Source: Ligula intestinalis
Lineage: Eukaryota > Platyhelminthes > Cestoda > Diphyllobothriidea > Diphyllobothriidae
Direction of reading: 5' to 3'
Assembly (NCBI GenBank): GCA_036362985.1
Contig: JAYGXS010000008.1
Coordinates: 12,442,278 to 12,506,277 of the forward strand
DNA length: 64,000 nucleotides
The position numbers were made by a program, and so were the translations under genes. Under the pieces are notes generated by a model that had not been told where the DNA came from, made no database searches, and was given only the letters and a program-made list of their open reading frames with translations. The stretch's first letter is position 1; each line of letters opens with the position of its first letter. Shown piece after piece: positions 543 to 49,461 of the stretch.

Positions 543-771
543 CTGGGAGAGGTCATCAGCCTCTTCATGGGCCAATGCGGGACGCAGATCTCGCAAGCGC
601 TCTGGGAACTGATCAGTGTGGAGCATGGCATTGGCCCTGATGGTAAGCTGGTAGATCCACTCGTACAGACTGAGGAGGACACTGCGGCTTCAAATGTACT
701 TTTCACACACACCCAAAAGGATCGATTTGTGCCCCGCGCTGCTATCGTCGACAGTGAGCCCACGGTCGTTG
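543..771 (+). CDS. Alpha-tubulin exon a (N-terminal, after an unseen start exon)
   Basis: The acceptor is TTCTGTTAG at 534-542 and the donor is GTGAGT at 772. It encodes the N-terminal beta strand and helix (FMGQCGTQISQALWEL, SVEHGIGPDGK) and ends in DSEPTVV, phase 1. The H1-S2 loop (KLVDPLVQTEEDTAAS) lacks the acetylatable lysine. GQCG is beta-like, but WEL, EHGI and PDG fit alpha. Confidence 0.92.
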
Positions 772-15700: not shown

Positions 15701-18700
15701 TGAGTGTTGAACTTTAACGGATGATTATCCATGTGTGTCTGGTAAGTGCGTCTGCTAACTGCCTTCTCAGCCATGTTAAAAAGTGAAAGCCTCAGACTCG
15801 CATTACGCATGAAGCATAGGAGATATATATGCAAGAAGTTTGGGAGCTTACCTACTGAATTTATGTGCTTACTAACCTGCACGCCTAAAGTCAAATGTGA
15901 CGTCTAGAGTGACTTATGTTGTCTCATATGTTGTAATGTCGCCAAGGCCTACGATGCCACCGACAAATAAGGCTTATCTGAATTCCCAAAGTAAGAAAAC
16001 AACAAGGGCGCAAAGGTGGAAGTTTATAAGCATACCTAGTGTAGCATATTTAAAGTGAGCAAGGCGTTACAAGATCAGGCCAGTTAGATTATGTCCTCAA
16101 GCGAGTTGCAACTCGACTGGTCTTGTGACTCATGCGGCTGCGCAGCAGTATCACGTGTGCTGCGCGTGGGCGGATCGATAACGTGGCAAGAAAGCGGCTT
16201 GCTATGCCTGCGGGTGCGCGCGTTGGTTAGGGCGGCTCTTAACAGCCCGCGCTTACAACGCTGGCCTAAGCCAACGCTAAGGCTGAAGCCAGAACTTCCA
16301 TAGTATCCACGTTTCTATATCTATGAACATCAGTCGGTCTCAGGCTGGAGTGTAGCACTGGCTCAGGGAAACTCAAAAGCCCTGGTTTGGGGGATTTGAA
16401 ATTGACGAGATAATTCGGACCACGCTGTCAGTCCAGTGTGTATTGTTTTGTGTTGAGTGGCTGGTCGAAGGACTGAGAGTCAGGTTGCAGTAGCTATTTC
16501 TTAATGTGGTCTTTCTGACAGTCACACGCAATTGAGATCTGAGTCAGGTGTGATGGCACACATAGGGCGTCTTTGGTCGCGCCAGCCACCTGCGTCCGAT
16601 CTCGCCCCCGCGCTTTTTGACTGTATATTTGCACCAGGGTTAGGTGGGTGAGTGCAGTGGTTTCTGCGCAGGTCACAGTTTCTTCATTACTCTGGTATAT
16701 GGTCGATATGGTCAAAATCGATGGTCGAACTGTCGTGTAGGACAGGATTACGACAATTCGATCGTCGATGGCACGTGCAATTACATAGGTCAACTCAAAG
16801 GGTGCATCGAGGACGTTTTGAGCTTATTGAAGCTGGTTGTTTCATGGTAAAATGCATTGCGGATTAAATGTGGACAAAAGGAGAGCAAACCCAGGCTAAG
16901 TATTATCAGAGGCAGACATTTATCACGAATTGATTAACCGAGTCAATGACTTGCCCCGCGGCTACCTATTAGACAGGTGGATGTCGCTCAGCCTATAGAG
17001 TAGCAAGTTCTACGGAGATACAAGCAATCGCTCCCAGAGACACTCATGACCTCTAGTCGATCGTTCTCTAGGCGCAACCTCTTCTCGCCGTTGTTCCTTT
17101 TGGAGTTGGTATGCGTATATTTGAAGGGTTACAGGCAGGGAATACCCTTAAGGACCCTACTAATGTAAAGACATCATACCATTTTTTCAGTCAGTATGAA
17201 GTTATGGAAATTCGAGTGAGTTTTCGGGGAACAATTTGAAGCAGTATGAAACAAATAAAGCCCTGAAAATGTTTACAAGGCGGGCAATAAGAAATCATGT
17301 TTTGATAGTTGCCATTTGTCAAACATAAAGCTATCAAGTCTTCTTTTTAAATCACCAACGGTGTCGCGGAAACCCTCCTGCTTTGCAGAGGGTTTGTTAC
17401 AGCGCCATTCTGATCGTTCAGACGCTTGGATATTTTTTGCTTCTCTCAGAATTCCCACCTTCATTGAAACTTACCTCTCTCTACAACCCTGAATTACGTG
17501 GATTGCTGACCTACGGAGAGTTATCTTCCCCTTTAGCCAATTCAAGTCTTTGCAAAATTTGACTGTTGTAGATGAAATTCGGACCGGCCTGTATCGGGGT
17601 ATGTTCAATCCCGCACGGTTAGTCACTGGCCTAGAAGATATGGCAAACAACTTTGGGCGGGGCTACTATGGTTGTCCGCAGAACTTGGTTGATCAGGGCA
17701 TGAACGCCGTGCGCAAGGAGGCCGAACAGGCGGACAAATTGCAGTCCTGCCTAGTGTTTCATTCCTTTGGTGGCGGTACCGGAGCGGGCACAACGTGTCG
17801 TAAGAAAAACATCTTTTTTCTACTTGTCCACAATGATGTCATCGCCGTCCCGACAACCTACCCTTTTTGCATTTCCTAGGATTGGTTGAACTAATGGATG
17901 CCGAATTCATGAAGGTGCCGAAAATCGAAATGGCAATCTATCCGGATTACCACAAGTCCTGCTCGGTCGTCGAACCCTACAATGCCGTCCTCTGTAGTAG
18001 TACCCTGGATGAAGTCAGCTCATTTGCCCTCCTGATAGAGAACGATGCGCTCTGCAGGATTTGCAATGAATCTCTGCGCATGGAACGGCCATCGTACCCT
18101 AATCTAAATCGAGTGCTAGCCCATGTGCGTGAACATCATTTTATCGCACAATGTTTATATTTAAAAAATAATGCCTACTGACTTCTTGCTGGGTAGGCAG
18201 TACTTAGCTCATGAATATTTTGTGCATTAAGGCATGCAGTGGGATTCTGGCGCCTTTGTGTTTCGATGGTCCTTTGACGGCCTCGCTGCCACAACTGCAA
18301 ACCAACCTCGTTCCCTATCCACGACTTCACTTCCTACAGGCTTCTCTGAATCCGATGTTTACTCATGACCAAACTATTCACGAAGGTAAGTCGGCTGATG
18401 TCCAAACCTTCTTCTTTAAAAGTGTCAATAAGCTGCGGAACACGCGTGCGACTCTGGAGATAACATTCTCTTCTCTTTCTGCTGCAGCTATAACAATCCA
18501 AGAACTAACAAACGGTGCGTTCAACTCAATAAACCAGATGATGGTCGGAGATCCCAAAGAGACTGTGATGATGGCGACGGCACTTTTATACCGTGGCCAG
18601 ATTCCCATCCAAGAAATAAATTCGAGCATTGATGCGATCAAGAAGCGGGGTTTAATCGGACTGGTTGACTGGTGTCCAACCGGCTTCAAGGTCAGCATCA

Positions 18701-21700
18701 GTTTATTTCAGTTCAGGTTCATATGGGAAAGGTAGCTGAAAGCCCTTGACTTCCATATCAGTGACAATAACATAGCAATATAGAAAGGCCCATATGTGTA
18801 ATTGAGGCAAGAGAGAGAGTGGTAGATGCAGTGCAAGTCTACTATTATTGAACGTAATTTAAGCGTTCCTGCACCCTTATACTCTGGAGCACATGGCGGA
18901 CCTCGTCGAAGTCAACGGTTGAACTATCCTGGTCAAATTTCAGCTAAAAGCTCTGGCAAAATTGATTGAAGAGGACCAAAAACTTATGATAAAATACTGT
19001 TTTCAAATATTCGGTAGCCTAAATTTAAATATTTTTTCGTTAAATTCCACCGATAGGAGGACAATTTTCCGTTTTCGTTAAATTTCGCTCGCATACGGTC
19101 AAATTTTCCTCAATTAGCATTCGTATACTCAACACGATAAGTTTATGTTGATTGAATTTGATTCTATTTAGCATATCAAAACAAGCATAATCTTATTTAC
19201 TTCAATACTTTTTGATCAATTCCGCCACAATTACATATTTCTTTACGCTTACTATCCGAGAGTTATATGTTTGACCACGAAATACTCCAAGCAGTTGGGC
19301 GGGGGGGTGGATACATAGAGGGGACGTACAGATCAATTTTGCCAAACACGTGCCTGGTTAGGAGCATGACAGTGTCCACAACCAAAGTAGTCAAGTCAAG
19401 TCTGAATCCATGCCTGAATCCCACTGTTGGAGAAAACGACATTTCGCGTGTTAATCCTTGTTCCAGTCGTGCGTAGTTTGAGAGGATGTCCTCGGAGTTT
19501 ATTGGTAATGGTTAGTTCACAGAAGTCGGTTTACGAGAGGAAGCAGCAGCATGTGAAATGCGCTTAGATGTCTGTAATGCCAATGAAAGAGGTCAAGATT
19601 GGACGATCGTAGCTGGTAATCAAGGCAGCCTTGGCCTTGCAGTAGCTCGGCTGCGCGTCAGTGGACGCTTTGAAGGATTTTGCGGTCCAAAACAGTCCGC
19701 GATCTTCAGGCATGAATGGCAACTTCCTGTTGTAGTAATACTAACATCCAAAAGACCTTACTGAAGCACATTTCATTGGACTTTGGCTTGTTTAGGTACA
19801 TCTTGACATTAAGGATTTGGTTATCTTCCAGCCGTAGGGTGATCGATGGCTTAAGTTGGGGCATAATCCACATTCCCTAGATCCTTCTGGCTTTTCATCT
19901 CTGGTGGTGGCGTGTGATTCTAAAAGTACACCCTCCGGTGCGCAGTGCTGGTTCTGCTGATGCGCATAATATTGTATTTGATAACAGTTAATGCTAGAGC
20001 TAGTAGCTCAAATGCTGCTCGATTCGATACAGGATTGCCGGTATATTTGCTTTTTCATATTCTTTGCGGATCACTTTTGACGTTTAAGGTGACCAATAAA
20101 CATGCTGATGTCGTAGTCTTATCCACTTATGCAATAAAGAAGGAAGAGGATGGGAACAATAGAGGAACCTTGAGTAATTCCACTTTCATCCAACACCTCC
20201 AGCGACTGTTGGTTGCCAAGGCGTGTGGTCGAAGAACGACTAGTTAAGAAGATGTCATTCAAGTTTAAATGTAACTTCTCACCCATATACGGCTGAGGGA
20301 TCGAAAGGGTAGATACAGTGGTTCTGCCAACTCGACATTTTTGTAGAGGTTATACTAGGGCCTGATGATTTTGTTTATTTTAGCTTCGGATTTTCTTGCA
20401 TATTATTATTAGATTCTGTAAGGATCATTGAATCGACTGCCGGGATCTCATCTTCACTCAACTTATCAGTGGTTAGATTGGGCTTTCTCGTAAAAACCGA
20501 CTGAAGGAACTTGGACAAATGTTCAACCTGTTCGCCATCCTTGCAACGTTCGGCAAAATCATTCGTTAATATGTTTGCAGAAGTCCGTAAAGTTAGATCA
20601 ACGGGTTCGCCTATGGTTATAATCCATCAAGGGTATCTGCTTAGATAAAAAAGCATTTCAAGGAAAATGTCGCTTGAAATAATGACAAAACTATCTTCTA
20701 GGGCAGCCTAAGTATCCATTCTCCCCACCCAATTTTCTTAAGTAATTTGTGGTCAAACATTTTATTCCTGGTTAGTGAGTGTAAATGACTATTTAATTGT
20801 GTTGGAGATGAATAAAAAAATGTTAAATTAAAGAAACTCATATTTGTTTCAATATACCAAATAGAATCAACTCAATCGACATTAACTCCTGTTACGCAAG
20901 CAACTGGTGCCTTCATGGAAATTCATCCCTATGTTGGCGGAGATTAAAGAAAAATAGAAAGCATGGTTAGTAAAACTGGAAAAGTAGGTTATTGTTATAA
21001 TTGAAAGACAACTAATGCCTCTAAAGACACCCCTGCGGAAAAAATTGCAGTTTTATTCGCGGAGCAAGCTGTCAATTTCGCACGCCAGTATTTGAAGCCA
21101 ATAGCTGAATCAACTAATGTACAGCTTTCGTGCATTCCTTATAAAACATGAGAAAGGTAAAAATTGCTTCAGCATATCCATACTTATTTGGCTGCGCAAG
21201 AAAACCTCAGAAATTGAGCACCTCATACTCGTTGTTGGTTATTTTTCTTGACGATTCCTTTCTGATTAGATAGGCGTCGTGCCGACCCTTCCCGCCGTCA
21301 TACAAGCCAGTGGAATCGGCAAAACAAACAGACAGCTAACCGCGCTCTACAATTCAACACTCATTGTCAGCCCACTGAAGGCAAATTTGCACAAGTTTAA
21401 GGTCCTTCTTTCTAAAAAGGCCTTCATACACTGGTACCTCCAAGAAGGTATGGAACAGGGAGAATTTCAGGAATGCATGGAGGACGTATTGAATATTCTG
21501 CAGGATTATCTTTTTGTTGAAAGTAAGTGGCAGTTGTGCGGAAAGTGCAAGTCAGTGCAAGTCAAGTCTCCTAACAAACGCAGTTGAGAAATTATTTGCG
21601 AAAACTCCCATTTTTGGCGATACGAATACCTAGATTTAGAAGTAACTTATGCAGCCAATTTCGAATAACCTGAAAATGCTTGGTAACTTCTGCTATCCTG

Positions 21701-23418
21701 TAGAATTCCTGGGGGAGGGCAAATGATGACGACAGGTACCGGGTAAACTGCAAGGGAGTTGGCCTTCGATATTGATTAAAGTATTTAATAAGAGATAGAT
21801 GGCAGAAGTGAGCATAGGTGATAAACCACGGTAACTAACTATAGAAGGAATACTAGTTGTGAGCCGCCCATCTTACTAGGGTGCTAACATCCTGCTGGGT
21901 TAAGATGTCGTCCTTTTTTTTGCAAATTCACTTTCTTCCTGGTTAACTTTGGAATCACATGTAGCAGCCATCACCTTTGCTAATTCAACGTCAGGTTAGT
22001 ATGAGTTTACGGTGTCAAGCTCTTGAACTGTATCCCAAAATTCCTGGTGAATCCAGCATGTTATAATTCACGATTATGTGCAATTCAATATGTCTACCTT
22101 ATAAAAGGAGCCGAATTGTTTTCTCTTTATTGCGTAATCCACCCATGACCACTGTTGTTTTTAGCAGTTTAGTTCAGTGTGATTGTGGGGGATAGGTTTA
22201 CGCTATTAAATTTGCATTCGTCACATAAACTCTTGACAATTTAAAGCGATGTCAAGAAATAACAGCTTCGATTGAATGCCAAAGAAGAGTTCCACAGTAC
22301 ACTACTATTTAAGGTTAAGTAGTCATCTGGTTGACCTTTTGCTGCAGCAAAGCTCTGCCAATCCTATGATTGGATGTCTATATAGACCTAACAATAGCCT
22401 CGGAAAAAAATTCTCCACCCGTTTCTCGTATTACTTTCTGCTCATGTATCTGATGAAGAATCCATTATGGATGTTGAAACATCAGGCGAATAAACGTGTT
22501 GGCCGAGCGATCGAATATTCTTCTATAATCCTCGAGTCCATGCCACGGTCGGATTAAAACATTTCTTCACACCCAATTACTCAGTGATCCGTGCTTCAAT
22601 CCAAAATCGGAAAAACATCAAGTGGGAAACTAGCGTCAGTTTGCAATGTATCCTACGTACCTGCAATTTATCCTACCAACCTGCAATTTTTGTCAAAAAA
22701 CATTCACTATGCTGCCTCTGATTCGACGCATTGTTCTGATGACTGTGATTTCTAGCGACCTAGCTTGATCTTATGATTAAATGTGAGCGTATTATTTGGC
22801 CGTGGAATTCTTAATGATAAATTTTTTTGTTCTTTTAACTTTTTGCTTTGAATTGTAGTAGAGCTTGTGCTTTTTTCCTCAAGGGGGGAGAGGCTACGGA
22901 AGAGATACGCGGCGTCACAGTAAGCTAGATGGTCTTTTCTTTTTGCAGAGACGCTGACGCACAACCGCACGGGAGGGGCCGACAACGTTCACGGACCACC
23001 ACCTCGGCCTGACAGGCAGAGTAGACACTCAGCCGGCACGCAAAACTCCCACAGTGATGCTGGCGCCAGTAGTGGCAGTGGCAGTGCAGTTTTCGCCGGA
23101 GGCGGTAGTTTTGGTGGCCTAAGTGTTGGCGGTCCTGGTGGTGGCAGTAGTGTTGGGGGCCCTGGTGGTGGCGGTAGCGTTGTTAGTGCAGCCGCACCGT
23201 CTTCTAACTTTCGTATTTCGCCACTTCCCGGTGCCCCGGCGTCAGTTACCAAGCAAAGTGTTCAAAGTGCCCAGACCAACAGCAGTGAAGAGAGTGAAGA
23301 CGATGAGGACGACGAAGATGACGAAGATGACGATGAAGATGATGACGATGACGACGACGATGAGGATGAGGATGATGATGATGATGAGGACGATTATGAC
23401 GATACCGAGGAATCATAG
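543..23418 (+). CDS. Divergent alpha-tubulin with a long acidic C-terminal tail (7 visible exons)
   Basis: Exons 543-771, 17572-17799, 17880-18124, 18232-18385, 18488-18690, 21270-21522 and 22949-23418 join into 1782 nt with no internal stop and matching phases. Alpha class is shown by DSEPTVVDE, VFHSFGGGTGAG (phosphate-binding loop), QTNLVPYPRLHF and DWCPTGFK. The core has about 437 residues, as usual for the family. From the normal tail position the protein runs on for about 155 residues: a Gly/Ser-rich part, then 43 residues with 39 Asp/Glu. Oddities are Gln at the Glu254 position, no Lys at the K40 position, and no final EEY. Alpha-tubulin normally pairs with beta-tubulin in microtubules; a tissue-restricted or sperm role is only a guess. 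The initiator exon is missing, and the exon starts LGEVIS where MRECIS is usual. Intact phases argue against a pseudogene. Confidence 0.93.
890..1132 (-). mobile_element. Penelope-like terminal region with a decayed hammerhead core
   Basis: Read on the minus strand, the segment near 907-955 has an ACC/GGG outer helix, CTGACAC in place of CTGANGA, a short hairpin, and then GAAACGTC. The order matches the better-preserved motif at 10561-10602. It lies just upstream of the Penelope-like ORF. The assignment to a Penelope-like element is inferred from position and motif. Confidence 0.4.
1129..1332 (+). repeat. Left arm of a roughly 200-bp inverted repeat
   Basis: This arm matches the reverse complement of about 2300-2497 with only scattered mismatches by eye, for example AAAGGCATCCTTTGGGAAAT in both. 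The arm covers the start of the + strand Penelope-like ORF. Confidence 0.85.
1215..2240 (+). pseudogene. Penelope-like retrotransposon, RT C-terminal part plus GIY-YIG endonuclease
   Basis: This 341-residue ORF has lost the catalytic RT core. The first half carries the RT tail typical of Penelope-like elements (GIQFTLKKEV, LPFLYVLVQR, SVYRKDTHAK, HNGYPGDF). From about residue 220 follows the GIY-YIG module with a CKAC zinc-like pair and KVYCGQKERSVSTRIREH, whose Arg and Glu are expected in the active site. The second Tyr/Gly of the family motif is altered to VYCG. The Met at 1215 is arbitrary, because the true RT lay upstream and is gone. It sits inside the first tubulin intron in the same orientation as the gene. 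Confidence 0.82.
2300..2497 (-). repeat. Right arm of the inverted repeat
   Basis: This is the reverse complement of 1129-1332. It joins the end of the + strand GIY-YIG ORF to the minus-strand GIY-YIG fragment, so the two fragments face each other. Confidence 0.85.
2447..2850 (-). pseudogene. Second Penelope-like GIY-YIG fragment, opposite strand
   Basis: Translating the minus strand across one frame change gives NCLCGKATYVGDTGKRALTR, then LHEHELA, then DHASSPGHGF and LLQETWHF. TYVG with the R...EH spacing is the GIY-YIG signature of Penelope-like elements. The sequence differs from the + strand copy, so this is a different subfamily. The reading frame is broken near 2660. Confidence 0.72.
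2851..3214. other. Non-coding intron DNA
   Basis: No ORF, RNA gene or known repeat is recognised. The motif CTAAATATACTGAA near 2862 recurs near 55484. Confidence 0.4.
3215..3530 (+). mobile_element. 5' fragment of LINE family B
   Basis: This segment is a close copy of the reverse complement of about 48893-49170, the 5' part of the family B LINE at 45-49 kb. Shared stretches include CAGGACAACTGGCCTCGCCA and the run of C at about 3283-3296. Only the 5' end is present, which is unusual because LINEs are normally 5'-truncated. Confidence 0.8.
3700..3770 (-). repeat. Imperfect tandem repeat at the LINE A 3' end
   Basis: Three units built around TTTGGATT(T/C)(A/G)GA(G/A) and CTTCA follow one another directly after the RT stop. 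Confidence 0.6.
3768..5611 (-). pseudogene. Reverse transcriptase of LINE family A, copy 1
   Basis: The RT domain is spread over four frames. Recognisable parts are GFRRGRSCLTNVL, the motif A region VDFKKASDTVSHRRL (the usual Phe after KKA is Ser), SGVSQGSVLGP, and the catalytic FADDIKLW. The C-terminal domain ends with RGHPLKLRVTGARLHPRKFF and FKAWNAVP, typical of this LINE group. The catalytic Asp pair is intact but the frame is not. Confidence 0.85.
5664..6716 (-). pseudogene. Endonuclease domain of LINE family A, copy 1
   Basis: Two pieces, 6716-6303 and 6227-5664, form the exonuclease-endonuclease-phosphatase fold. Catalytic-site motifs seen are YTNAQSLLPKLDEL, CITETWL, GGGVLIYVRHG, MGDFNAPHIDW and LGKSDHVVL. 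A stop separates the pieces near 6303. Such domains nick target DNA to prime reverse transcription. Confidence 0.85.
6770..6952 (-). pseudogene. ORF1 C-terminal piece of LINE family A
   Basis: The 60-residue ORF contains FEVLRSFRIGKR and then LRPKLLKIIF. The same arrangement, an FRIGK-like segment followed by RP.LK(V/I), occurs in the ORF1 regions of families C, E and F in this window. It is probably an RNA-binding subdomain; that function is inferred. Confidence 0.6.
7141..8690. other. AT-rich intron DNA without recognisable genes
   Basis: Only short unsupported ORFs occur (for example 7408-7611 and 7491-7763 on the minus strand). No terminal repeats or conserved motifs were found. Confidence 0.5.
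8700..9460. other. GC-richer block with an unassigned 132-residue ORF
   Basis: The block is more GC-rich than the DNA around it and holds an ORF at 9054-9452 on the + strand with several Cys residues (ANCD, LCIVRK, KSVDCPKW). I recognise no family. It may be a repeat fragment or chance ORF within the tubulin intron. Confidence 0.3.
9461..10305. other. Non-coding intron DNA
   Basis: No supported gene. Small ORFs around 9978-10285 overlap on both strands and look like chance. Confidence 0.4.
10505..10990. mobile_element. Penelope-like or retrozyme-like insertion inside the hAT element
   Basis: The middle of the hAT-like element is occupied by DNA bounded by inverted ACGTTTCGG (10566) and CCGAAACGT (about 10930) motifs. 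The left one is a well-formed hammerhead-like structure. No ORF is convincing. The limits are approximate. Confidence 0.4.
10561..10602 (-). ncRNA. Hammerhead ribozyme-like motif
   Basis: On the minus strand the order is outer helix GGCT (pairs with AGCT), core CTGACGA, hairpin GGAGAC/GTTTCC around a GAGAGA loop, then GAAAC and the cleavage triplet GTC. This is the type I hammerhead order with an almost absent helix III, as reported for Penelope-like elements. One extra T sits between CTGACGA and the hairpin, so activity is uncertain. Confidence 0.6.
11106..12065. other. AT-rich intron DNA
   Basis: Very AT-rich, with no ORF over 60 codons on either strand and no recognised repeat. Confidence 0.5.
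12066..14005 (-). mobile_element. DNA transposon with CCCYAGTAGCA ends, tentatively EnSpm/CACTA-like
   Basis: The left end CCCTAGTAGCA (12066) and the reverse complement of the right end, CCCCAGTAGCA (14005), form 11-bp inverted termini. AT flanks both sides. Both ends hold many short subterminal copies of GTCTA/TAGACG-type words (for example 12095-12240 and 13970-13990). A broken minus-strand coding region lies inside. Subterminal repeats with a very short target duplication fit EnSpm-like elements; the superfamily remains an inference. Confidence 0.6.
12707..13700 (-). pseudogene. Transposase remnant of the CCCYAGTAGCA element
   Basis: The minus-strand translation is interrupted by many stops, yet ordered fragments remain: QMGDGEYVHIGLERQL (about 13260-13205), then DIQLAIDGLPVCKKTN, GPILCRVVQPY and DVFPVGIYYGGSKP (about 13155-13020). 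The pattern of an IDGLP segment, PIL..., then a (V)G.Y.G.SKP segment is one I associate with transposase-like proteins of animal genomes. No catalytic triad could be placed. Confidence 0.5.
14006..17565. other. Remainder of the first tubulin intron
   Basis: About 3.5 kb without a supported gene. ORFs of 62-100 codons (14663-14857, 14885-15427, 16091-16303, 16494-16867, 17273-17464) overlap on both strands and show no family motif. Short TCAGTCAGTA repeats lie near 15390-15415. Confidence 0.45.
17572..17799 (+). CDS. Alpha-tubulin exon b
   Basis: It encodes DEIRTGLYRGMFNPARLVTG, LEDMANNFGRGYYG and VFHSFGGGTGAG. The Glu-Asp before the ANN motif and the glycine-rich phosphate loop are kept. The donor is GTAAGA at 17800. 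Confidence 0.95.
17880..18124 (+). CDS. Alpha-tubulin exon c
   Basis: An 80-bp intron precedes it. It encodes LVELMDAEFMKVPKIEMAIY, SVVEPYNAVL and MERPSYPNLNRVLAH. The spacing from the glycine loop to IYP equals that of ordinary alpha-tubulin. The donor GTGCGT is weak, but it alone gives the correct length. Confidence 0.9.
18232..18385 (+). CDS. Alpha-tubulin exon d, carrying Gln at the Glu254 position
   Basis: The acceptor is ATTAAG at 18231, with a poor pyrimidine tract, but the product aligns without gaps: CFDGPLTASLPQLQTNLVPY against the usual FDGALNVDLTEFQTNLVPY. The codon at 18292-18294 is CAA (Gln), where alpha-tubulin has the GTPase-activating Glu254. The donor is GTAAGT at 18386. 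Confidence 0.88.
18488..18690 (+). CDS. Alpha-tubulin exon e
   Basis: The acceptor is CTGCAG at 18487. It encodes ITIQELTNGAFNSINQM, LLYRGQIPIQEINSSIDAI and VDWCPTGFK. The donor GTCAGC at 18691 is chosen because it makes the next stretch the canonical length. Confidence 0.92.
19380..20570 (-). mobile_element. Very old family A LINE remnant in a tubulin intron
   Basis: Patches follow the minus-strand family A copy at 3.9-5.4 kb in the same order: 19440-19560 matches about 3900-4020 (GTAGTTTGAGAGGATGTCCTC), 19850-19980 matches about 4320-4455, and 20100-20250 matches about 4585-4730. No frame survives. It lies within the 2579-bp intron 18691-21269. Confidence 0.65.
20571..21269. other. End of the 18691-21269 tubulin intron
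   Basis: AT-rich, with no ORF. It ends in CTGATTAG at 21262-21269, the chosen acceptor. A TAG 4 bp further on (ends 21273) would break the alignment. Confidence 0.5.
21270..21522 (+). CDS. Alpha-tubulin exon f (C-terminal helices)
   Basis: It begins IGVVPTLPAVIQASGIGK, the same 18-residue length as the family's VGINY...DLAK loop, and continues to KKAFIHWYLQEGMEQGEF and ILQDYLFVE, matching the kinesin-facing helices. The donor GTAAGT is at 21523. If this intron is retained, the frame ends after about 22 more residues (stop near 21587), giving a short basic tail. Confidence 0.92.
21523..22948. other. Last tubulin intron
   Basis: 1426 bp, GTAAGT to TTTTTGCAG. No gene is seen apart from the hammerhead-like motif near 22.45 kb. 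Confidence 0.7.
22446..22492 (+). ncRNA. Decayed hammerhead-like motif
   Basis: CTGATGA is followed by a hairpin around AATCC/GGAT, then GAAACATC and AGGCGAATAAA. The tail matches the motif near 63.04 kb except for ATC in place of GTC and AGGCG in place of AGGCA. The ATC change fits decay of a CpG. The outer helix is poor, so it is probably inactive. Confidence 0.45.
22949..23418 (+). CDS. Alpha-tubulin last exon: Gly-rich linker and polyacidic tail
   Basis: The acceptor is TTTTTGCAG at 22948. The 155 residues begin KTLTHNRTGGADNVHGPPPR, continue through Ser/Gly repeats such as VGGPGGGSSVGGPGGGG, then a hydrophilic stretch, and end with 43 residues (23287-23415) in which 39 are Asp or Glu and a single Tyr lies seven from the end. 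The stop is TAG at 23416. Known alpha-tubulin tails are about ten residues with several Glu, so this is roughly a tenfold extension. Asp greatly outnumbers Glu, unlike usual tails. Confidence 0.9.
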
Positions 23419-25133: not shown

Positions 25134-27000
25134 TAAATGATGCTAACTCTTCCAAATCTGTTGCTCAAGTCTTCCGTTTTCGGTCATCCGCTAAGCTTCA
25201 GAAAGTCATTCCGCCTTTACTCGATAGTAGTAATCATTTTGTTAAAGAGGATTCGGCAAAAGCAGAAATGTTAAATTCCTTCTTCGCCAAGTTCTTTACA
25301 ATTGAGACTAGTCCAACACCCGAAATACCTCTGATGTGTGATGCAAATCTCACTTCAATTGATTTCTTACCTACATGTATTCATAAAGAAATAGCTCGTC
25401 TCAACAATTCACATCCAGTCGGGACGGATAACATTCCAAACTCATTTATTATTCAACTAAGAGATTTCCTCCTTTACTGAGCAAATTATTTACAATATTT
25501 CTCGAAAACGGTTTTTTTCCTGATTCTTGGAAAACTTCTATTGTAATTCCAGTTTTTAAATCTGGTTCCAGATCTGACATTAAAAATTATCGCGGTGTTC
25601 ATAAAAAACCTTCTCTAGCTAAACTGTTTGAAAAATTAATCGCCAATAAAATTTCAGATTTTTGCATAAGCAATCAAATATTAAATATATCTCAGGATGG
25701 TTTTATACCGGACCGATCTTGTGAAACATGTCATATGTCTTTTCTTAATCTCCTCACTTCTCTTCGTAACGATCATTTATCTGTGGTGGTCATCTTTTTT
25801 GATCTAAGTAAGGCATTTGATAAAGTACCTCATAGAAGACTACTAGCCAAACTAGAGGCTATAGGATTTTGTAGTCCTCTCATTGACTTTATTAGATCAT
25901 ATCTTTTTAATCGAAAACAACAGGTCTTAATGGGGTCCTCATACTCTACCCCTACCGCTTTTTAAGCGGTGTCCTTCAAGGTACCGTTCTGGGCCCCCTG
26001 TTGTTCTTGCTTTATATAAATGATATTTCAACAATAGTTAAACACTCTCAATCGTATATATACGCAGACGACTTGAAATGTGTATACTCCTTTTCTAATT
26101 CTACGGCTGAGGGATGCTTAGAACGCATTCATTCGGATTTGGACGCTCTATCTGCGTGGAGCTCCACGTGGCAGATGGAGTTCTCGCCTTCGAAGTGCCA
26201 GTTCATGTGTTTTGGGCCTGAAAGGCTGCCACAGCCTATCATTTTTCAAGGTTGCCCCATGACTGAATGTTCTAACATTAAGGACTTAGGTTTAAGTTAC
26301 ACCAATAAATTAGATCTTTCGCCTCACGCTGATAGAATTACAGCAAAAGCTGCTCAGATATGCGGCTTCATCTCTTATAATTTCTACCTTCCCGAAATGA
26401 AGCTAAGACTTTATCGCATGTATGTGCTTCCTATTCTCGAATACTGTAGTCCATTCTTCGGTCTAATGAACGAATCTAGTTGTTCAAAAATTGAAAGTGT
26501 CCAAAAAAGATTCACTCAAAGGGTCCTCTATCCGGCATTTTCAGATACTTCCTACTCAGATAGATGTGAGATAACGAAACTGAAATTTCTTTGGGTCAGG
26601 AGAGTGGAAGCAGGGTTTTTTCTCCTGTTTCGCCTTAATAATAGTTCAAATCTCCCCAAGATTTCTGCCCTTTCTCCCGTTAGTCGCCCTTACAACCTAA
26701 GAAATTCAACGTTGATTATACCTCCTCCTGCTTCTTCCACTTCTAAGCGATCTCTATTTTTTGCTTCCAGGTATAGCCATATTTGGAATAATTTGCCGAT
26801 TGATATTTGGGCGTTGACTAGTCTATGTGCATTCAAGCGAAGACTGCACATTTATCTTAACACTGAATCTATTAACCAATTGTTTTCCTCATCTTTTCTG
26901 GGCAGCTTTCTCCACAATCCGGAGAAAGAACCATCGGGAATTTAGAATCCCTTCTTGAAACTACCTTCCTCTGACTCATGTACCCCGGAATCAGTAAGCA
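25134..27000 (+). mobile_element. CR1/L2-group LINE, family B, copy 1 (5'-truncated)
   Basis: The copy starts within the segment before the RT (LLDSSNHFVKEDSAKAEMLN) and runs through the RT to a stop at 26943. About 60 bp of 3' UTR then matches that of the family B copy at 45 kb. Frames are broken at about 25478, 25735 and 25966. It shares family B motifs with the 45-49 kb copy but lies on the opposite strand. Confidence 0.85.
25268..26945 (+). pseudogene. Reverse transcriptase of LINE family B, copy 1
   Basis: Pieces in order are FIIQLRDFLL, FFDLSKAFDKVPHRRLL (motif A), then YIYADDLKCVYSF with the catalytic Asp pair, and a 314-residue C-terminal part ending in FKRRLHIYLNTESINQLF. The last 314 residues are open; the front half has frameshifts. 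Confidence 0.88.
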
Positions 27001-28149: not shown

Positions 28150-29636
28150 GTGGCACAAAAAATCTTACATAGCATGGAGAGTTTAGATGCTACAAGTCCG
28201 TTAGCACGAAACGTTTCGCCTCCGCCGGATCTCGAACCCGAGTCGCCAAATCTGGTTATTAGCGGTGTTAGCACCTCAGGCAGCCCGGCCACTTCGACAC
28301 GGGCCCTTGACAACCATGTTAAGATACGACCAGAAAGTAACTGTCGATGTGGCCACTTAGATAATTTTATAAATTCTCCACCTCCCGCCAAACGGCCAAG
28401 TTGTCTACTACGTTTACCGAAGTTAGACTGTGAGGACTTCGTCCTCCGCCAGGAGTTTTCGGAGATGAAGCAGGAACTTTAACACGAGGTAAATAAACTG
28501 AAACAAGAGATAGCCTAACTAAAAACGCATATTTTTTATACAGCGGTTAAAACAGCCCTTGTCGGCCAAAAACTGGGGGTAAATAAAAGCACATATGCTC
28601 AGATAGCCTCGGCCAGTAAACCTGAAACTCACATATCATCTGCCAAACCAAGTAAACCAGCGGGCGTCTCACTCAATCGTAAAGAAACTAAAATAAATCC
28701 GCAGTCTACGCCACCGTTACTCGGCTCAGGCAGCACTAACAATGATCTGCATTTGCGTCCTAGCGTCACATCGTTGCTCGATGCTGCACTAGAAAGCGAT
28801 GATACAGAGGTCGATAAGATCATTAAGCCAAAAACGCATAGGGCTAGGAAGGCTCGAAGTCTAAATGGGCCAGGAATGCGCAGTCAGCTAACCCAAAAAC
28901 CGGCACATCAGGACCCATCGAACCTCAAGTACCGGATACAGATGCCCGCTTGGTCGTCACTCGTGAGCTCGCAACAGATGCACCAGTGAGTCACAAGCAG
29001 AATATAGTTGTAAAAGGGGCTCCAGAGATAGCGTCGACAATTGCACAAGAACGAGTTGACGCTGACATTGACTTGGATTTGGACATTTCTGTCGACACGC
29101 CTGAAACCTGCATATCGGACCATGTGTCAAGCCCACGGGCTATACCATCGTCACTCGGCTTAAGCGACACTAGCAATTATCGGGATTTGCATCCTAGCAC
29201 CACATCGTTGCTCGACTCTGCACAAGAAAGCGATGACCAAGAGGTTGATAAAATCATAACTCATAAGAGGCATAAGCCTAAGAAAGCCAAATGGTTCACG
29301 ATTTTGCACTCAGCTTACCCAATAGCCAGTACATCAGAACTGCGTGTACCGGATGCAATTGCTCCCTCGGCTGAAACACGTGAGCTTGCAACATATTCCC
29401 CATTGAGTCGCAAGCAGAAAATAGTTGTGAAGGGGGCCCCAGTGTCAGAAACGTCAATTGCACAAGAACGAATTCACCATGACGTGGGTCTTATGCGAGT
29501 TTACGCCAAACTGTTGCTAAAATCAGGCGAGTCTTTCCACATTCTTAAGGTATTTCGAATAGGGAAGGCTCCAACAGCTCCAGAATCAACTTCTCGGCCA
29601 CGAACTCTAAAAGTTGTTTTAGAAACTGAAGAATAG
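28150..29636 (+). pseudogene. ORF1 of LINE family C
   Basis: The product starts MAQKILHSMESLDATSPLAR and has a heptad-like stretch near 28440-28520 (VLRQEFSEMKQEL, then EVNKLKQEIA) cut by two stops. A long Ser/Thr-rich region follows in which the word SVTSLLDAALESDD recurs as STTSLLDSAQESDD, an internal duplication. The last part, FHILKVFRIGKAP and RTLKVVLE, is the segment shared with ORF1 of other families here. Confidence 0.75.
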
Positions 29637-29898
29637 GCGAAACTCTTGCTAGAGCGCAAACCATCCTTACGGAGTCTGCATTCGCAAGTTTTTTTCAGCC
29701 GGATTACGAGTTGAAAGAGCGGCGAAAGATGAGACAGCTAATAATAGAGCTGGAGAAACGGAGAACCAATGGCGAGACAAATCTCAAAATAAGAGAGGGA
29801 AAAATAGTTCAGGTCAAAAGGAGACCGCTCTGGTCGAAGCCGGTAACAGTGACGGCCTAGCTGTCCCGCCACCAAAACCTAAGACATGCCCTCTTAAA

Positions 29899-30560
29899 TT
29901 GGTCGTTTTAAATGCCAGATCACTGATTAATAAAATGCCTCTGCTCCAGACTATTGTTTTCGTCAACCGCCCAGACATTGTTATGATAACTGAGACATGG
30001 GCATCGGCCTGTGTAGCTGACTCAGAACTCTCTGTTTTAGGCTGTGCGTGCGTTCGGAACGATCAAAACAATGGCCGTGGCGGAGGAAGCTGCATCTTTA
30101 TAAAGCAGCCACTTGCATTTCTCCCGTTGGACTTTCCACAATTCACAGCGGTGGAGGAGAGCTGCTGGCTACGAGTTGTTCTAAAAAACAAATACTCCTT
30201 ACTTGTTGGCTGTGTTTATCGCCAACCTAATGCAAATGCAGACTACGATCTTTGTCTCTCGCAGGCATTTCCTGCCGCACCTGACTTGAATCTTAAGTAT
30301 TGCTTGATTGCAGGTGATTTTAACCTTCCTGACGTGCAATGGTTTCCACCATCCGGTCCTTCAAAGTTCGAGAACTTACTTGAGGCAATAGACATCGGCA
30401 TGTGGGATCAGGTAGTCGATTTTCCCACTCGAGGAGCAAACATACTCGACCTAATTTTTTGTAGGGGATGCGACCACTTTCAGTGTCATCCTTAGACGCA
30501 CTTGGGAGTTCAGACCATCTTACAGTTGTTAGTGAACTAGAACTGGAGGCGGATAAAACA
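29899..30560 (+). pseudogene. Endonuclease of LINE family C
   Basis: VVLNARSLINKMPLLQ, MITETWA, GRGGGSCIFIKQ, IAGDFNLPDVQW and then, after a frameshift near 30490, LGSSDHLTVV. These are the catalytic Asn, Glu, Asp/Asn and Ser-Asp-His sites of the LINE endonuclease fold. Confidence 0.85.
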
Positions 30561-31189
30561 TTTTACCAAAAGTAAAGTCTTTATCATGACTTCCGATCAG
30601 CTAACACGGCGGACCTACTGGCACATCTAAACGCTCTCGACTGGTCTGAATTTTTCCAATGTTTGGATGTAAATGTTTGTACCGATGCACTGTACAAAGT
30701 GTTGAATCCACTCATCCTCCACTTTGTCCCCCGTAAGAAAGTAATACATGTCAAGGATGAAGTGTACCTTCCTCTGTCTTTCCGTCGTAGGCTGCGTAAA
30801 CTCTCTTGTCGTTTGCATCGGCAGAGCGACACTTCCGTTCTGCCCTTGATCACACTGATCTTTGAGCAGGCTAAGAAGCTCTCCGAAGAAAAGCAGATAG
30901 CCGATGAGGCCCACTTTGCTGAAAATCCTTCCCTTAACGTAGCGAAACTCTTCGCGTACAGTAAAAGTGCAGAGGAAAACGCAACACCCCATACTTCAAG
31001 ATGCTTTAGGAAACCCCAAAGCTGACGCTAAGTTGACCGCCGATAGCTTCAATGCGTTCCTATCCAAAACGTTTAGTGAAAGCTCGTTCGCTGCACCTCC
31101 GGCTATCGAGGGTTGGACGGGTGCCGTACTCGAAACCATAAGTTTTACCCTCTGGGATGTGACTGTAGCCATTCGTCGTTAACGTCAAT

Positions 31190-32783
31190 CTTATATTCCA
31201 GGATGAGATGGCGTCCCAGTTATCCTTCTAAAAGCTGAAGCGAATGATATCTTTCCGTCTATTCTTTGTCAGGTATTTTATCTTGCTCATGAGAGCGAAA
31301 CCTTTCCTTCGTTGTGGAAGGAATCGCACATAATGCCTATTCGAAAGCATGGCCGATCGACGTCATTCGATAACTTTAGGCCAATAAATACACTTCCCGC
31401 AGCCTCGAAGATCTTGGAAACCTTGATCAAAGAAAAGATTATGCGTCACTTGACAGAGAACAACCTGCTCAATACAGCTCAACATGGCTTTCTCGAGAAA
31501 CGATCTTGTGACACCTGTCAGCTCTCTTTCTTTGATTATGTGCTGCAATCTAGAGACAGCGGTTTTGCCACTTATAGCGTCTATTTTGATTTTACTAAGG
31601 CCTTTGATCGGGTCGATCGTAAACTCCTCCTTCTGAAACTGGCCTCCTTCGGCATAGGGAGCAAGCCTCTAAACTTCATATCTTCCTATTTGGATGCTCG
31701 CACACAACGAGTAAAAATTTCCAATGTTATCTCCAACCCCACGCATGTGAGGAGTGGAGTTATACAGGGTAGTGTACTGGGCCCGCTTCTATTTTACTTG
31801 TTTGTCAACGACGTTTCAGATTGTTTTCAGTATGGCAGACCCTTCATGTACGCTGATGATTTAAAAGTCGCTTATCGATATAAACCGGCAGATCGCAAGA
31901 TCATGCTCCAGCTGATAAATAAGGATCTTCAGGCCTTTGCCCAGTGGTGTTGCACATGGCGCCTCACCCTTTCATGGCACAAATGTTCCGTTATGGTTGT
32001 TGGCGACGATCATCAACCGGAATTAAGCATTGTCGGCCACGAACTAAATGTCCCAGGAGTTATCAAGGATTTGGGCATATCCTACTCTAATAGTCTCAAT
32101 TTGTCAGAGCACTGTGCCCTGAAAGTCTCGAAAGCACGCCGAACCACCGGATTTATCCTTAGAAATTTTAAGACTATATAGGTTAGAACTAGCCTTTATA
32201 ATATGTACGTGAGATCTAGTCTTGAATACTGCTCGCCCCTATTCAGTCTTCTGCGCACTAGTGAACGGAAGAAAATAGAATCAGCGCAGCACTGCTTCAC
32301 TAGAAGAGTTTTCACTACAGAGCACCGTAACTTAACCTACAAACAAAGGTGCGAACTTATAAAGCTGGATCCCCTGTGGCTTCGTCGATAGCAGAAGGGT
32401 TTATTTTTACTGTTTAAACTTTTGAATGGTCAAACCTTTAATCCTCTTAGTACAATAAGGCAGCTTGAACACTCTCGACATGCCAGTCATCGAGACGTAT
32501 TTTTATTTCTTATATGGCACGTACAGTTAAGTACCGGCAATTCTTTTCAGTAAACGCTATATCAATCTGGAATAAGCTGCCCAAAAGTATTAAAACCCAG
32601 CAACGCTTCCCTGTGTTTAAGACAGCTATAAGTAGTTTTCTACATTCAGGACAACTGTCACGAATTTTGGGTGCTGACTCGGTAAAATCTCTCTTTCACT
32701 CTGATGGCGTTCGTGGACTTCGAACCCCGCCAGGCTTCATGCTGAAGATAATGCTGCTGAAGCAGCAGCCCGCAGTCTGCTAA
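31190..32783 (+). pseudogene. Reverse transcriptase of LINE family C
   Basis: A 289-residue piece holds SFDNFRPINTLPAASKILE, GFLEKRSCDTCQLSF, YFDFTKAFDRVDRKLLL, SGVIQGSVLGPLLFYLFVND and FMYADDLKVAY. The C-terminal part continues in other frames (YVRSSLEYCSPLFSLL at 32203, AISIWNKLPKS at 32550). It has catalytic Asp residues but multiple stops. Confidence 0.88.
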
Positions 32784-33201: not shown

Positions 33202-34600
33202 TCAGCAAATGAGAATCAAGTTTGTGTTNNNNNNNNNNGCTCCGTAGGTTTTCCTGAAGAGCTCCTTGTCAATGTTGACGAATCCCCGCCTAATCGCAAA
33301 CAGTACCTGTGTCGCGCGTTTAGATGCCTTTACACACTGAGTAGATGGTTTAAGTGAGGAATTTATTAGAACACCGAGATCCTTTTGTTCGTTCACATTT
33401 GAAAGTGGGTGCCCATCGAGGAGGTATTGTAAGGAATCGTTCTGCTCATCAGTCCTTCTAGTACGGAGTCTTAAAACCACACACTTACTAATGTTGAAGT
33501 TTAAAAGCAAACGAGCAGACCAGCAGCTAAGTTGATTGAGACTCTCTTGAAGCGCTTTCCTATCGGCATCAGACCTGGTGGCTCTCCAGAGTTAGATGTC
33601 GTCGGTAAACATGATAGCGCTGCAACCCAGGTCGTTGACACAGTCGTTGATATAGATACGGAAGAGCAGTAGCCCTAAGACAGAGCCTTGGGGGACGCCA
33701 CTCAGAACAGATGTAGGGTTTGACTTTGAGTCACCGATGCACACAGTTTGCGATCACCCTGTGAGAAAATCTGTGAGCCATGCCAACAGGTTTCCTCTTA
33801 TGCCAATTTCTGACAATTTATAAATTAGACGCTTATGTGGGACGCTGTCGAATGCCTTCTTGAAGTCCATATAGATGACGTCAACCTTACCATCTTCATC
33901 TAGTGCGCGAGTCCACTGCTCACTGGAGAGTAGAAGGCTGGAAAGGCAAGAATTGTTCTTTCTGAAGCCGTGTTTGAGCCCTGACAGTAGGTTGTTCTCC
34001 TCCAAGAACTCCATTGTAGTCTTCTTAATTATCGTTACCATTACCTTACAGCAAATGCAAGTTAGGCTGACGGGTCGGTAATTTTTGACCTTTGTTCGGG
34101 CTCCGCCCTTGTATATCGGGTTAATATTTGTCATTTTCCATTCAGATGGCAGTTTTCCTAGTTCAAATGAAAAACGAAAGATATGTGCTAGGGGCTCTGA
34201 AAGTTCGCTTGCAATTCTTTCAAGAACTTGGCTGGTATATTGTCTGGACCGGATGACTTTGCTTCTCTGAGGCTCTGCAGCTCCCTCTCAACTACAGATG
34301 TTGGAAATAGTAAAGAATGAAGTGCTGGGCCGGCGTTTACAACAGCACTGTTGGCATTATTAAAATGAAGCTCGGTTTCCCTAGTGAATACCGAGGCAAA
34401 GAACCGGCTACAGCACTCGGCTTTCTCGTCATTCTCAATGACTTCTCCGCCATCATCATTCTTAATTACTGCGACAGGATCCTTGTTTTTTAATCTACTG
34501 TTAATATAGCGGAATAGAATTTTGGGCTTCTCTTCGGCCTGTTGGAGGATTCTTGATTCATAGTTTTTCCTGGCCTGGCGAATTGATTTGTTTACTGCAT
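33202..34600 (-). pseudogene. Reverse transcriptase of LINE family E
   Basis: Minus-strand motifs: INPIYKGGARTKVKNYRPVS, GFRKNNSCLSSLLL, YMDFKKAFDSVPHKRL and SGVPQGSVLG. The catalytic box reads IMFTDDI followed by a stop, so FADD has become FTDD. Another stop interrupts TG*SQTV near 33752. Confidence 0.85.
33229..33238. other. Assembly gap of 10 Ns
   Basis: Ten Ns sit inside the family E RT. Upstream the protein reads LFRKTYG and downstream NTNLILI (the latter in another frame in the 42-kb copy), so far more than 10 bases are probably missing. Confidence 0.98.
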
Positions 34601-34706
34601 TTCTTTGGCGTCAGAATTCCTCGAGGTGTACTGGCGACCCAGTTTTCCTGAATAACTTCCATTTCCTATTCTTCTTCTTCAGTTGCCTGTTAAGGTCTCT
34701 CGTCAA

Positions 34707-35819
34707 CTAGGCAGGAAGACTAGTCGTCTTGTGTACCTTGACCGGACAAAAGCGCTTAATCAGATCAAATGCAACCCTCTTAAGTGATCTCCAATCCTCT
34801 TTCGGATCCTCCTTGAGTAGGCAGTCCCAATTCACGTACGATAGTGCATTCTTCATTGAATTGAGATCTGCCTTCCATATGTTTGGCTGGTCCTCCGTTT
34901 TCCTCAGCCGTTGAGTATGGAGTGAGTAATCCCACATTAGCGTCGTATGGTCACTCTTACCGAGTGGAGCACTTGAATGCACTTCATCTATGTAGGATGA
35001 ATCCTTCGTGAAAATGAGATCCAAACAAGTAGCTCGCTGGTTTTCTCGAAATCTGGTTATGCCCTTAACGTTCTGAACTAGAGAAAGGTCACGCGTGAGA
35101 TCCATTAATTTGGAACTAAAAGAAGTTGACGCCGCCTCAACTGTCAGGTTGTTCCATTCAATTGCAGGGGCGTTGAAGTCACCAACGATGAGAACCTCCT
35201 GGTGGCTAGCAGCTTCATTCACCAGACCAAGGAGCGAGTCGTCGGCTCCACTCAGAATGTTTGGCGACCGGTAAACGGCCAGGAATTCAAGGTTCCTTGA
35301 ATTCGCCTTCTTGATCTTTAACCAGACGGACTCATACTCCAGGGCTACAGTGTGTTCTCTTTCTTCAACAGAGATATCAGTTCTGATATACACGACAACC
35401 CCACCTTCTTGTCGGTTTTGGCAGTCTTTGCGGAAAAGCTGGTATGCTGGAATCGAAATCTCCGAATCTGCGATTTCTGTTTTTAGCCATGTTTCCGTTA
35501 TGGCAACTACATCAGGTTTCCGCTCCGAAAGTACTGCCTTGAGTTCATCAATTTTTGAGGGAAGACTTTGGGCATTAGTGTAAAGAAAGCTCAATTTAGA
35601 CTTATTCACCACTTTATGCAGGCGGTTGCCCCTTGCGTGAGATTGCATGCAGGGAGCTGTCGGTGCTGGACTGTTTTCCATCCCGACTAGGCTGTTAGTG
35701 TTATCGGCTTTCTCCAGAGGAGTGACCTCGGGGCATGGACGATCTCCCCGTTCAGAATTCGAAGATTGCTCTCGCCGAGTTCGCATTTCTTGTGGAGTTC
35801 TACTTTTAGCAATCTCCAT
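34707..35819 (-). CDS. Intact endonuclease ORF of LINE family E
   Basis: An uninterrupted 370-residue ORF. It opens with a Ser/Glu-rich leader, then LSFLYTNAQSLPSKIDELKA, AITETWLKTEI, GGVVVYIRTDI, VGDFNAPAIEW, TCLDLIFTKDSSYIDEV and LGKSDHTTLMWDYS. The usual catalytic Asn, Glu, Asp-x-Asn and Ser-Asp-His are all present. The ORF continues in the RT direction but stops before it (LPA*). It is the only complete domain ORF of its kind in the window. Confidence 0.85.
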   Translation of the reverse strand: MEIAKSRTPQEMRTRREQSSNSERGDRPCPEVTPLEKADNTNSLVGMENSPAPTAPCMQSHARGNRLHKVVNKSKLSFLYTNAQSLPSKIDELKAVLSERKPDVVAITETWLKTEIADSEISIPAYQLFRKDCQNRQEGGVVVYIRTDISVEEREHTVALEYESVWLKIKKANSRNLEFLAVYRSPNILSGADDSLLGLVNEAASHQEVLIVGDFNAPAIEWNNLTVEAASTSFSSKLMDLTRDLSLVQNVKGITRFRENQRATCLDLIFTKDSSYIDEVHSSAPLGKSDHTTLMWDYSLHTQRLRKTEDQPNIWKADLNSMKNALSYVNWDCLLKEDPKEDWRSLKRVAFDLIKRFCPVKVHKTTSLPA

Positions 35820-47500: not shown

Positions 47501-47583
47501 CGCATCACTTAATTCTGTGGCCTCTCTATGCCTATCTCGTGCAGGCCTTATTTTAAGCGCTAATTCAAATATTTGCGCTATTC

Positions 47584-48634: not shown

Positions 48635-49143
48635 ATTGGCCCTGGTCTACAGTTTGTCAAGTAATTATTATCAAATGAACGGTGCATATTGTAGAAAGGC
48701 ATATTAGAGGGGGCTCCATAGAAAGGGCGGCTGAAGTGTGGCATGGCAAAACCAGGAGGGGGCATAAATATAGGATTTTGAGGCATTATTTCAAAATTTG
48801 ACGGAAAATTTGCCTTCGAAAATTGCATGACTGGTTTTGAAAAACGGTTAATTTTATTAGCTGGCTGAATTTTTTGGGGATGTTCAGTATCAGTATCAGT
48901 ATATTGAGGGTATGTAGGAAAAATTCCTTTGAGTGCCCTATTTGTACATATGTGCAGTGGTAGCAAAACATTTGTTGCTAAGACTGTTGGCGAGGCCAGT
49001 TGTCCTGTGTCATAGGATGAAACTAGGAGCAGACAGTGAAAAAACTCCTCAGGGATTTTTAGGAGAAAAACTGTCGCCCTTGTGGGGGTAATGCGTGGGA
49101 TTTCGGAGAAAAAAGGGAGTTCCCACTGGGGGGGGCATTGCAA
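48571..49143 (-). pseudogene. ORF1-like leader of LINE family B
   Basis: A 190-residue ORF with a Phe/Pro/Met-rich end (MPPPGFAMPHFSRPF, FVSPMPFPFPPPSF). No zinc finger or coiled coil is evident. It overlaps the endonuclease start in another frame. Confidence 0.45.
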
Positions 49144-49461
49144 AGGTTCCCAGGATCATCACCGTGTGGACGCCACGTCCTGATTCTTCCTTGCTGATTG
49201 CAGGGTCCACCAACGGAACTAAAAAAAGAGAGGCATCCGTCCAGATTGTCGACAGTCCGCTTTAGGGTCGAACCAAGGGTGAATGTTTAGGCCGTCAGGT
49301 CTGGCTGATAAGATTGCCAGCGGGTAATCACGGTGCGCAGATAGCCCAGTAGGGTAGACCGCGGAGACCTTCGCATGAGGCTATGCGTGGGAGGGCGTTA
49401 TAAATAGCAAACGTGAATGGATATAAAAACTAATGCTACTGAAAAATTGGAAGTAGTATTA

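Follow-up and report, generated by a model that had tools for sequence, protein, structure and literature searches.

A divergent alpha-tubulin gene of the tapeworm Ligula intestinalis with Gln254 in its T7 loop and a predicted polyacidic tail

Gene structure and identity

The window, meaning the whole stretch of 64,000 nucleotides of Ligula intestinalis DNA analyzed here, contains a gene whose predicted product is an alpha-tubulin by descent; its best match is alpha- and not beta-tubulin. Exons 1 to 6 were located by tblastn with alpha-tubulin, splice sites and reading frame, and exon 7 by frame, splice sites and translation:

543..771, + strand, exon 1, tubulin N-terminus from LGEVIS
17572..17799, + strand, exon 2, holding the GGGTG nucleotide loop
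17880..18124, + strand, exon 3
18232..18385, + strand, exon 4, bearing the T7 loop
18488..18690, + strand, exon 5
21270..21522, + strand, exon 6, where the tubulin core ends; phase-1 donor A|GTAAGT
22949..23418, + strand, exon 7, predicted tail and stop codon TAG, with a pyrimidine-rich acceptor

The exons join in frame, all six introns are of the GT-AG type with agreeing phases, and the model runs to 593 codons followed by a stop, so that the seven exons, consistent phases and 593 open codons described in an earlier note on this DNA hold. The alpha-tubulin core claimed in the same note is borne out by the Pfam domains PF00091 and PF03953 (tubulin GTPase and C-terminal domains), both above cut-off, and by the alignment of model residues 3-434 to solved alpha-tubulins (60 PDB sequences listed of 170, all named tubulin alpha). 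The core is identical to human alpha-tubulin at 192 of 435 positions (44%); at this level of identity a tubulin fold is to be expected, which by itself would not inform on hydrolysis. Exon 2 is preceded by an intron of 16.8 kb. The model begins at LGEVIS and lacks a start codon; a start exon was looked for and none was found, and the start codon presumably lies in a further upstream exon. A run of N lies just upstream of the window. A plasmid search with exon 6 gave no match and is uninformative.

The T7 loop and the Gln254 clade

Microtubule dynamics come from GTP hydrolysis, and the trigger for hydrolysis is Glu254 of alpha-tubulin. The catalytic stretch of the window gene was identified by alignment to human alpha-tubulin and a solved structure and by a motif tally, and its codons were read from the human alignment:

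18277..18294, + strand, T7 catalytic stretch
18283..18285, + strand, codon 251, TCG (Asp to Ser)
18292..18294, + strand, codon 254, CAA (Glu to Gln)

With the catalytic Glu254 replaced by Gln and Asp251 by Ser, the window gene is without the residues of a canonical hydrolysis-competent alpha-tubulin; codon 249 in the same stretch is ACG (Asn to Thr). The loss of Glu254, overlooked in the earlier note, is more telling on function than the tail. At the positions that we take to form the GTP pocket, the alignment to human shows Q11, D69, E71, D98, N101, S140, G143-G146, I171, E183, N206, Y224, and N228 to be kept; A12 and T179 are both Cys in the window gene. Position 40, the Lys40 acetylation site, aligns to Pro in a loop where the alignment is uncertain.

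Among 175 retrieved proteins, drawn from the best 120 of 2148 and the best 120 of 3776 matches, Gln254 was found in all ten sequences of one clade of flukes and tapeworms (nine genes and a second isoform, P0165). Of the 218 motif copies outside this clade, 215 have Glu at the position; the three non-Glu copies (P0085, P0166, P0172) appear to come from gene models in which the motif is skipped. For P0143 the tally yielded no T7 motif copy. In a tree of 35 chosen rows, the window gene and nine clade sequences form one group (support 100/99), within which the tapeworm and fluke members are sister groups; the window gene belongs to the clade both by this grouping and by its Gln254. Three rows from the Ligula genome (C137, C8:12361676, C4 L070) have long branches and unsure placement. 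The nearest protein among those retrieved is from the tapeworm Dibothriocephalus latus (99%); the core is approximately 90% identical between Ligula and Schistocephalus, and it is kept across the flukes and tapeworms of the clade.

The predicted tail and the 3' end of the gene

The last exon is likely spliced to exon 6 (21522 to 22949), which would add a long acidic tail; the exon 6 donor and exon 7 acceptor are consensus-like, and their phases match. The predicted tail comprises 156 residues from exon 7 (the first codon is shared with exon 6), has a net charge of -35, and terminates in EES, not in the Glu-Tyr of canonical alpha-tubulin. Two stretches stand out in the translation:

23062..23187, + strand, Gly/Ser-rich stretch of the tail
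23287..23415, + strand, polyacidic tract, Asp or Glu at 39 of its 43 positions (the last 43 residues of the tail)

The long acidic last exon with 39 Asp/Glu in 43 residues, as claimed earlier, stands as DNA-level sequence, with 156 residues in place of about 155. Of 2000 dinucleotide shuffles of the whole exon, 2 kept the frame open, and the period-3 signal of its non-acidic part was stronger than in any of 620 samples taken from non-gene parts of the window; triplet-rich sequence inflates such a signal. The acidic tract resembles GAT/GAC arrays, with 89 other matches in the genome, several of them inside one array, from 40 of 388 first-look candidates scored. Third-position variation in the Asp/Glu codons was considered as proof of coding and was rejected, since the GAT/GAC arrays elsewhere in the genome vary at the same position.

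The first protein search took the whole model as query, with words from its first 500 residues; the polyacidic tail was absent from all nine related proteins viewed, in searches that never used the tail alone and could miss a separately annotated tail exon. After the motif DYLFVE, the related models continue for 25 residues in Schistocephalus, 2 in Sparganum and 0 in the partial D. latus model; an Echinococcus relative has 27 different residues and Fasciolopsis about 50. Two further groups of alpha-tubulins, A and B, with members from flukes, tapeworms and a monogenean, carry tails of about 180-670 residues, for which no description was found in the literature searched; the window gene falls outside both groups in the tree. 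Of the 33 flatworm rows surveyed, 15 have measured tails of at least 177 residues; two more, P0171 and P0129, were left out of account as being fused tubulins, and the remaining 16 consist of 8 with short tails (up to about 48 residues) and 8 in which no end motif was found. In 8 of these 33 rows the T7 pattern found no match; two of the eight were read by eye, P0224 as Glu and P0208 as Asp. The earlier statement that no such alpha-tubulin tail is known therefore survives for the exact tail, unseen elsewhere; it does not survive for long tails as such, which occur in flukes, tapeworms, a monogenean, and, by the available text of one account, in Toxoplasma and its kin (PMC10056924).

Under another explanation, which we regard as somewhat doubtful, the tail exists but arose neutrally as repeats expanded in a gene that evolves fast, and nothing beyond the core matters. 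This explanation would accommodate an acidic tract built on a repeat type common in the genome, the tails within the Gln254 clade, which differ between species in length and sequence, and the long-tailed groups, where comparison of fluke with tapeworm tails gave no match at E 0.001. Yet long tails recur in these two other alpha groups, and the fluke tails are partly alignable between genera (29-43%; Opisthorchis vs. Clonorchis 85%).

It is unlikely that the gene stops at exon 6, with a read-through of approximately 21 residues or another exon as its end, and that the acidic exon belongs to another gene or is a chance frame grown from GAT/GAC repeats. The annotations of relatives finish at exon 6, GAT/GAC arrays are common, the non-acidic part of exon 7 stayed open in 83 of 2000 dinucleotide shuffles, and AATAAA is absent from the 1083 bases from 23418 (ATTAAA occurs at 24121) but present in intron 6 at 22489, together with four ATTAAA. 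However, the splice signals and phases noted above fit, the exon 7 frame contains no ATG, the read-through residues past the exon 6 donor are barely conserved between genera (5 of 21 match by eye between Ligula and Schistocephalus), and no other coding exon was recognized between 21522 and 22949 when the frame listing was read through. Other alpha-tubulins of the Ligula genome have long tails inside the core exon. Two divergent paralogs lie on the same contig: in C8:12361676 exon 6 ends in a different phase, and no acidic exon was recognized up to a run of N; for C8:9393260 neither exon 6 nor the T7 loop was found in the stretch fetched.

Function and comparison with known systems

The preferred reading, with a probability of about 0.58, is that the window gene encodes a conserved, naturally GTPase-dead alpha-tubulin that would form or seed GTP-locked, stable microtubules and would bear the predicted Gly-rich and polyacidic tail of 156 residues. 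Since the window gene has Gln254, as do all ten clade sequences, its product is likely unable to trigger GTP hydrolysis in the adjoining beta-tubulin. If Gln254 and Ser251 jointly block hydrolysis, as would be predicted, GTP would remain in the dimers and the lattice would keep its expanded state. In cells, GTP-locked human E254A leaves the alpha tail accessible along microtubules (PMC12885479), from which it would follow that the acidic tail is displayed along GTP-locked microtubules, where it would serve as an intrinsic polyanion that basic partners could bind and might make added glutamates unneeded. The earlier note likewise suggested that the tail could mimic glutamylation or recruit basic partners. 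In vitro, the dependence of tail exposure on nucleotide state was not reproduced (PMC12885479).

That the product is instead a regulatory pseudo-tubulin binding tubulin or cofactors outside microtubules, or that another residue restores hydrolysis, appears improbable: the low identity to human and the joint alteration of three T7 residues would suit it, but the GTP-pocket residues are mostly kept, the core is retained in flukes and tapeworms, and the E254Q change is reported to allow assembly in human tubulin (PMC11893814).

On the reading of a GTPase-dead alpha-tubulin, long-lived sperm or cortical microtubules are a first guess at the site of use. Only tentatively can this be extended to parasitic flatworms keeping a dedicated Gln254 alpha-tubulin for permanently GTP-locked, expanded microtubules, with the diphyllobothriid polyacidic tail replacing enzymatic polyglutamylation, perhaps on cortical microtubules or on the helical central tubules of the 9+'1' sperm axoneme. 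An animal lineage conserving a laboratory GTP-lock substitution would offer a natural experiment on the benefits of permanent GTP-microtubules; the gene points to tubulins peculiar to parasites, and long alpha-tubulin tails to a wider theme in parasitic flatworms.

The identical substitution at the identical residue has been engineered in human tubulin. The accessible text describes alphaE254Q as devoid of GTP hydrolysis and forming stable microtubules that are GTP-bound throughout and grow without catastrophes (PMC11893814), with mild growth abnormalities, e.g., curved and discontinuous growth; E254A and E254N are likewise described as hydrolysis-deficient, and E254D as slowed (PMC7018511, PMC8764682). 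Unlike the window gene, alphaE254Q is a man-made single change, and its remaining T7 residues and tail are normal. The effect of Gln254 has been measured only in human tubulin, to which the Ligula core is just 44% identical.

Groups A and B combine, like the window gene, a divergent alpha-tubulin core with a long tail in the same kinds of worms, but they occupy separate tree branches, have E, D or S at residue 254 where it was read, and show no comparable polyacidic end among the tails viewed. Fasciola hepatica alpha-tub4 and alpha-tub5 are also divergent fluke alpha-tubulins, but are at least 72% identical to other fluke alphas; they are set beside the window gene by their description, the available portion of which does not mention Glu254 (PMC3820024).

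The closest described parallel, as an analogy, is the alpha3-tubulin of Toxoplasma and other coccidia, in which, according to the accessible part of its description, D251 and E254 are lost (T and Q/H) and the tail has about 40 residues; its authors suggest reduced hydrolysis, non-dynamic or long-lived microtubules, or decay (PMC10056924). Both residues are lost in the window gene as well (S251, Q254), a resemblance and not descent, and an unusually long C-terminal tail, as in alpha3, is predicted for the window gene at the DNA level; alpha3 differs in belonging to a protist and in its shorter tail. The two are assumed to be of independent origin, the tree containing no apicomplexan. In alpha3 a long tail accompanies the dead catalytic loop, as it is predicted to do in the window gene; this hints at a functional link, which is testable because the exposure of tails in cells varies with the state of the lattice.

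Gene model and core of the window alpha-tubulin

In this 644-Mb genome, the exons of the window alpha-tubulin gene join via GT-AG introns into 593 codons, as the earlier note had proposed from seven exons with consistent phases:

543-23418, plus strand: alpha-tubulin gene, seven exons, GT-AG introns, consistent phases
22949-23418, plus strand: exon 7, tail of 156 residues, open frame to the stop, in-phase splice sites

The model has no start codon; the first exon located begins with LGEVIS where an Echinococcus relative begins with MPLGEVIS, and a search for the start exon found none, with an N stretch directly upstream of the window. Among the matches listed, the closest proteins come from the diphyllobothriid tapeworms D. 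latus (99% over 342 columns), Schistocephalus solidus and Sparganum proliferum. The 16.8-kb first intron contains a 354-codon open frame (1176-2240, plus strand) with a C-terminal part that, judged by eye, resembles the GIY-YIG endonuclease of a Penelope-like element; open frames at 4895-6302, 25432-26945, 28848-32181, 33754-35828 and 45698-50822 resemble, by eye only, LINE endonuclease/reverse transcriptase, and Ser/Pro/Gly-rich open frames at 62206-63765 (plus strand), not transposon-like, are possibly exons of another gene.

In alignment with human alpha-tubulin, 192 of 435 core residues are identical. The GTP-pocket residues checked are kept except A12 and T179, both Cys in the window protein. 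The T7 loop carries the changes N249 to T, D251 to S and E254 to Q; a second alignment, to a solved structure, places the same Gln on Glu254.

The Gln254 clade of flukes and tapeworms

The T7 motif copies in 175 proteins from the first two protein searches (best 120 of 2148 and best 120 of 3776) comprise 215 Glu, 10 Gln, 2 Trp and 1 Ser, some fused double tubulins being counted twice; the Trp and Ser cases look like gene models in which the motif is skipped, and the motif was missing from one protein. The 10 Gln sequences represent nine genes (P0063 and P0165 share one gene name) and derive from Schistocephalus, Sparganum, D. latus, Echinococcus granulosus, Mesocestoides, Fasciolopsis, Opisthorchis felineus, Calicophoron and a metagenome. 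With the second isoform omitted, the window protein and nine Gln sequences form one clade of 10 rows (support 100/99), in which flukes and tapeworms are sister groups and the metagenome row falls among the flukes; no schistosome member appeared among the matches listed (best 120). The window gene is a member of this clade with an unusual tail, and the clade itself, a conserved fluke and tapeworm alpha-tubulin lineage, likely naturally dead in catalysis, is a larger finding than the tail.

At 29 alpha-tubulin loci of this genome the T7 motif has 23 Glu, 3 Asp, 1 Gln (the window), 1 Thr and 1 Val, a tally in which some small-contig loci may be second copies and one has in-frame stops, and outside which several alpha-like loci lie. 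Thr and Val occur at C2:40218228 (L038) and C2:40013226 (L086), respectively, and Asp at C8:12361676 (L039), C4:6929497 (L070) and, as the third case, C8:23809747 (L074). An alpha-tubulin copy at C10:14260303 (L018, L071) bears in-frame stops and is perhaps a pseudogene.

The probable tail exon and other long-tailed alpha-tubulins

The tail runs from a short part with a few basic and His residues through a Gly/Ser-rich part to 43 residues with 39 Asp/Glu, and has a net charge of -35. The exon-7 frame lacks any ATG and closes with a stop, so either splicing makes it a terminal exon or it is open by chance. A chance frame would fit the absence of the tail from all nine Gln254-clade proteins viewed, of AATAAA within 1083 bases after the exon, and the 89 other genome matches to the acidic tract among GAT/GAC arrays, with several sitting in a single array and 40 out of 388 candidates scored. 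On the other side, the exon-6 donor A|GTAAGT and the pyrimidine-rich exon-7 acceptor match in phase, and shuffling left the whole exon open in only 2 of 2000 trials (83 of 2000 for the non-acidic part). Compared by eye, the window read-through beyond the exon-6 donor agrees with the Schistocephalus annotation at 5 of 21 residues, two of which the donor itself encodes, against ~90% identity between the cores; this stretch behaves like an intron. A genuine exon of the window gene is predicted, at odds of roughly three in four; the tail of the earlier note stands as sequence and is probably real as protein. The 89 matches are 72-89% alike to the acidic tract, and the seven loci viewed (two overlapping) are repeat arrays.

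Further divergent long-tailed alpha-tubulins are encoded in this genome:

C2:81214785 (L037+L073): tail of ~295 residues
C8:23809195 (L078+L074): tail of at least 507 residues at C8:23809747, with no stop within the stretch fetched
C137:7798 (L075+L080): tail of ~224 residues

All three tails are continuous with the core exon, and the C2 and C8 loci cluster with long-tailed fluke and tapeworm proteins and one from a monogenean. Among the matches listed in the third protein search, such proteins occur in tapeworms (Spirometra, Sparganum, Echinococcus, Taenia, Hydatigera), flukes (Fasciola, Clonorchis, Opisthorchis, Paragonimus, Calicophoron) and the monogenean Protopolystoma; for 15 of the 33 flatworm rows the tail measures ~177-672 residues. 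The long-tailed rows used in the tree fall into groups A and B, separate from the Gln254 clade. Fluke group-B tails are partly alignable between genera (29-43%; Opisthorchis and Clonorchis 85%), and the tails of flukes and tapeworms gave no match to each other at E 0.001. The Protopolystoma xenopodis protein (P0220) has Ser at 254.

Predicted effect and known systems

Human alphaE254Q was designed as the smallest change that halts hydrolysis; its microtubules contain GTP throughout, show zero catastrophes and bind EB3 along the lattice, with mild growth abnormalities (PMC11893814). The E254A mutant is hyper-stable and the E254D mutant slow (PMC7018511), and E254N likewise fails to hydrolyse (PMC8764682). 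In cells, the alpha tail becomes accessible along the lattice with E254A, an effect that nucleotide state by itself did not produce in vitro (PMC12885479). Given these mutants, a Gln254 alpha-tubulin with a long acidic tail would be expected to build GTP-locked microtubules in the worm, or mixed ones with GTP islands, and to display its tail there. Tapeworm sperm of Khawia have cortical microtubules and a 9+'1' axoneme with a core of two helical tubes of ~14 nm, in a paper where the word tubulin does not occur (PMC6733933); one might speculate that stable GTP-locked microtubules would suit either structure.

In the open PMC library, mostly excluding subscription papers, the titles and abstract openings of the papers listed yielded none on Glu254-less or long-tailed flatworm alpha-tubulins. 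Divergent Fasciola alpha-tubulins were described in 2008, residue 254 being unmentioned in the parts covered (PMC3820024). The nearest described case is Toxoplasma alpha3 with its coccidian homologs, in which D251 and E254 are replaced by T and Q/H, the alpha3 tail has ~40 residues, and a role in long-lived microtubules, or decay, has been suggested (PMC10056924).
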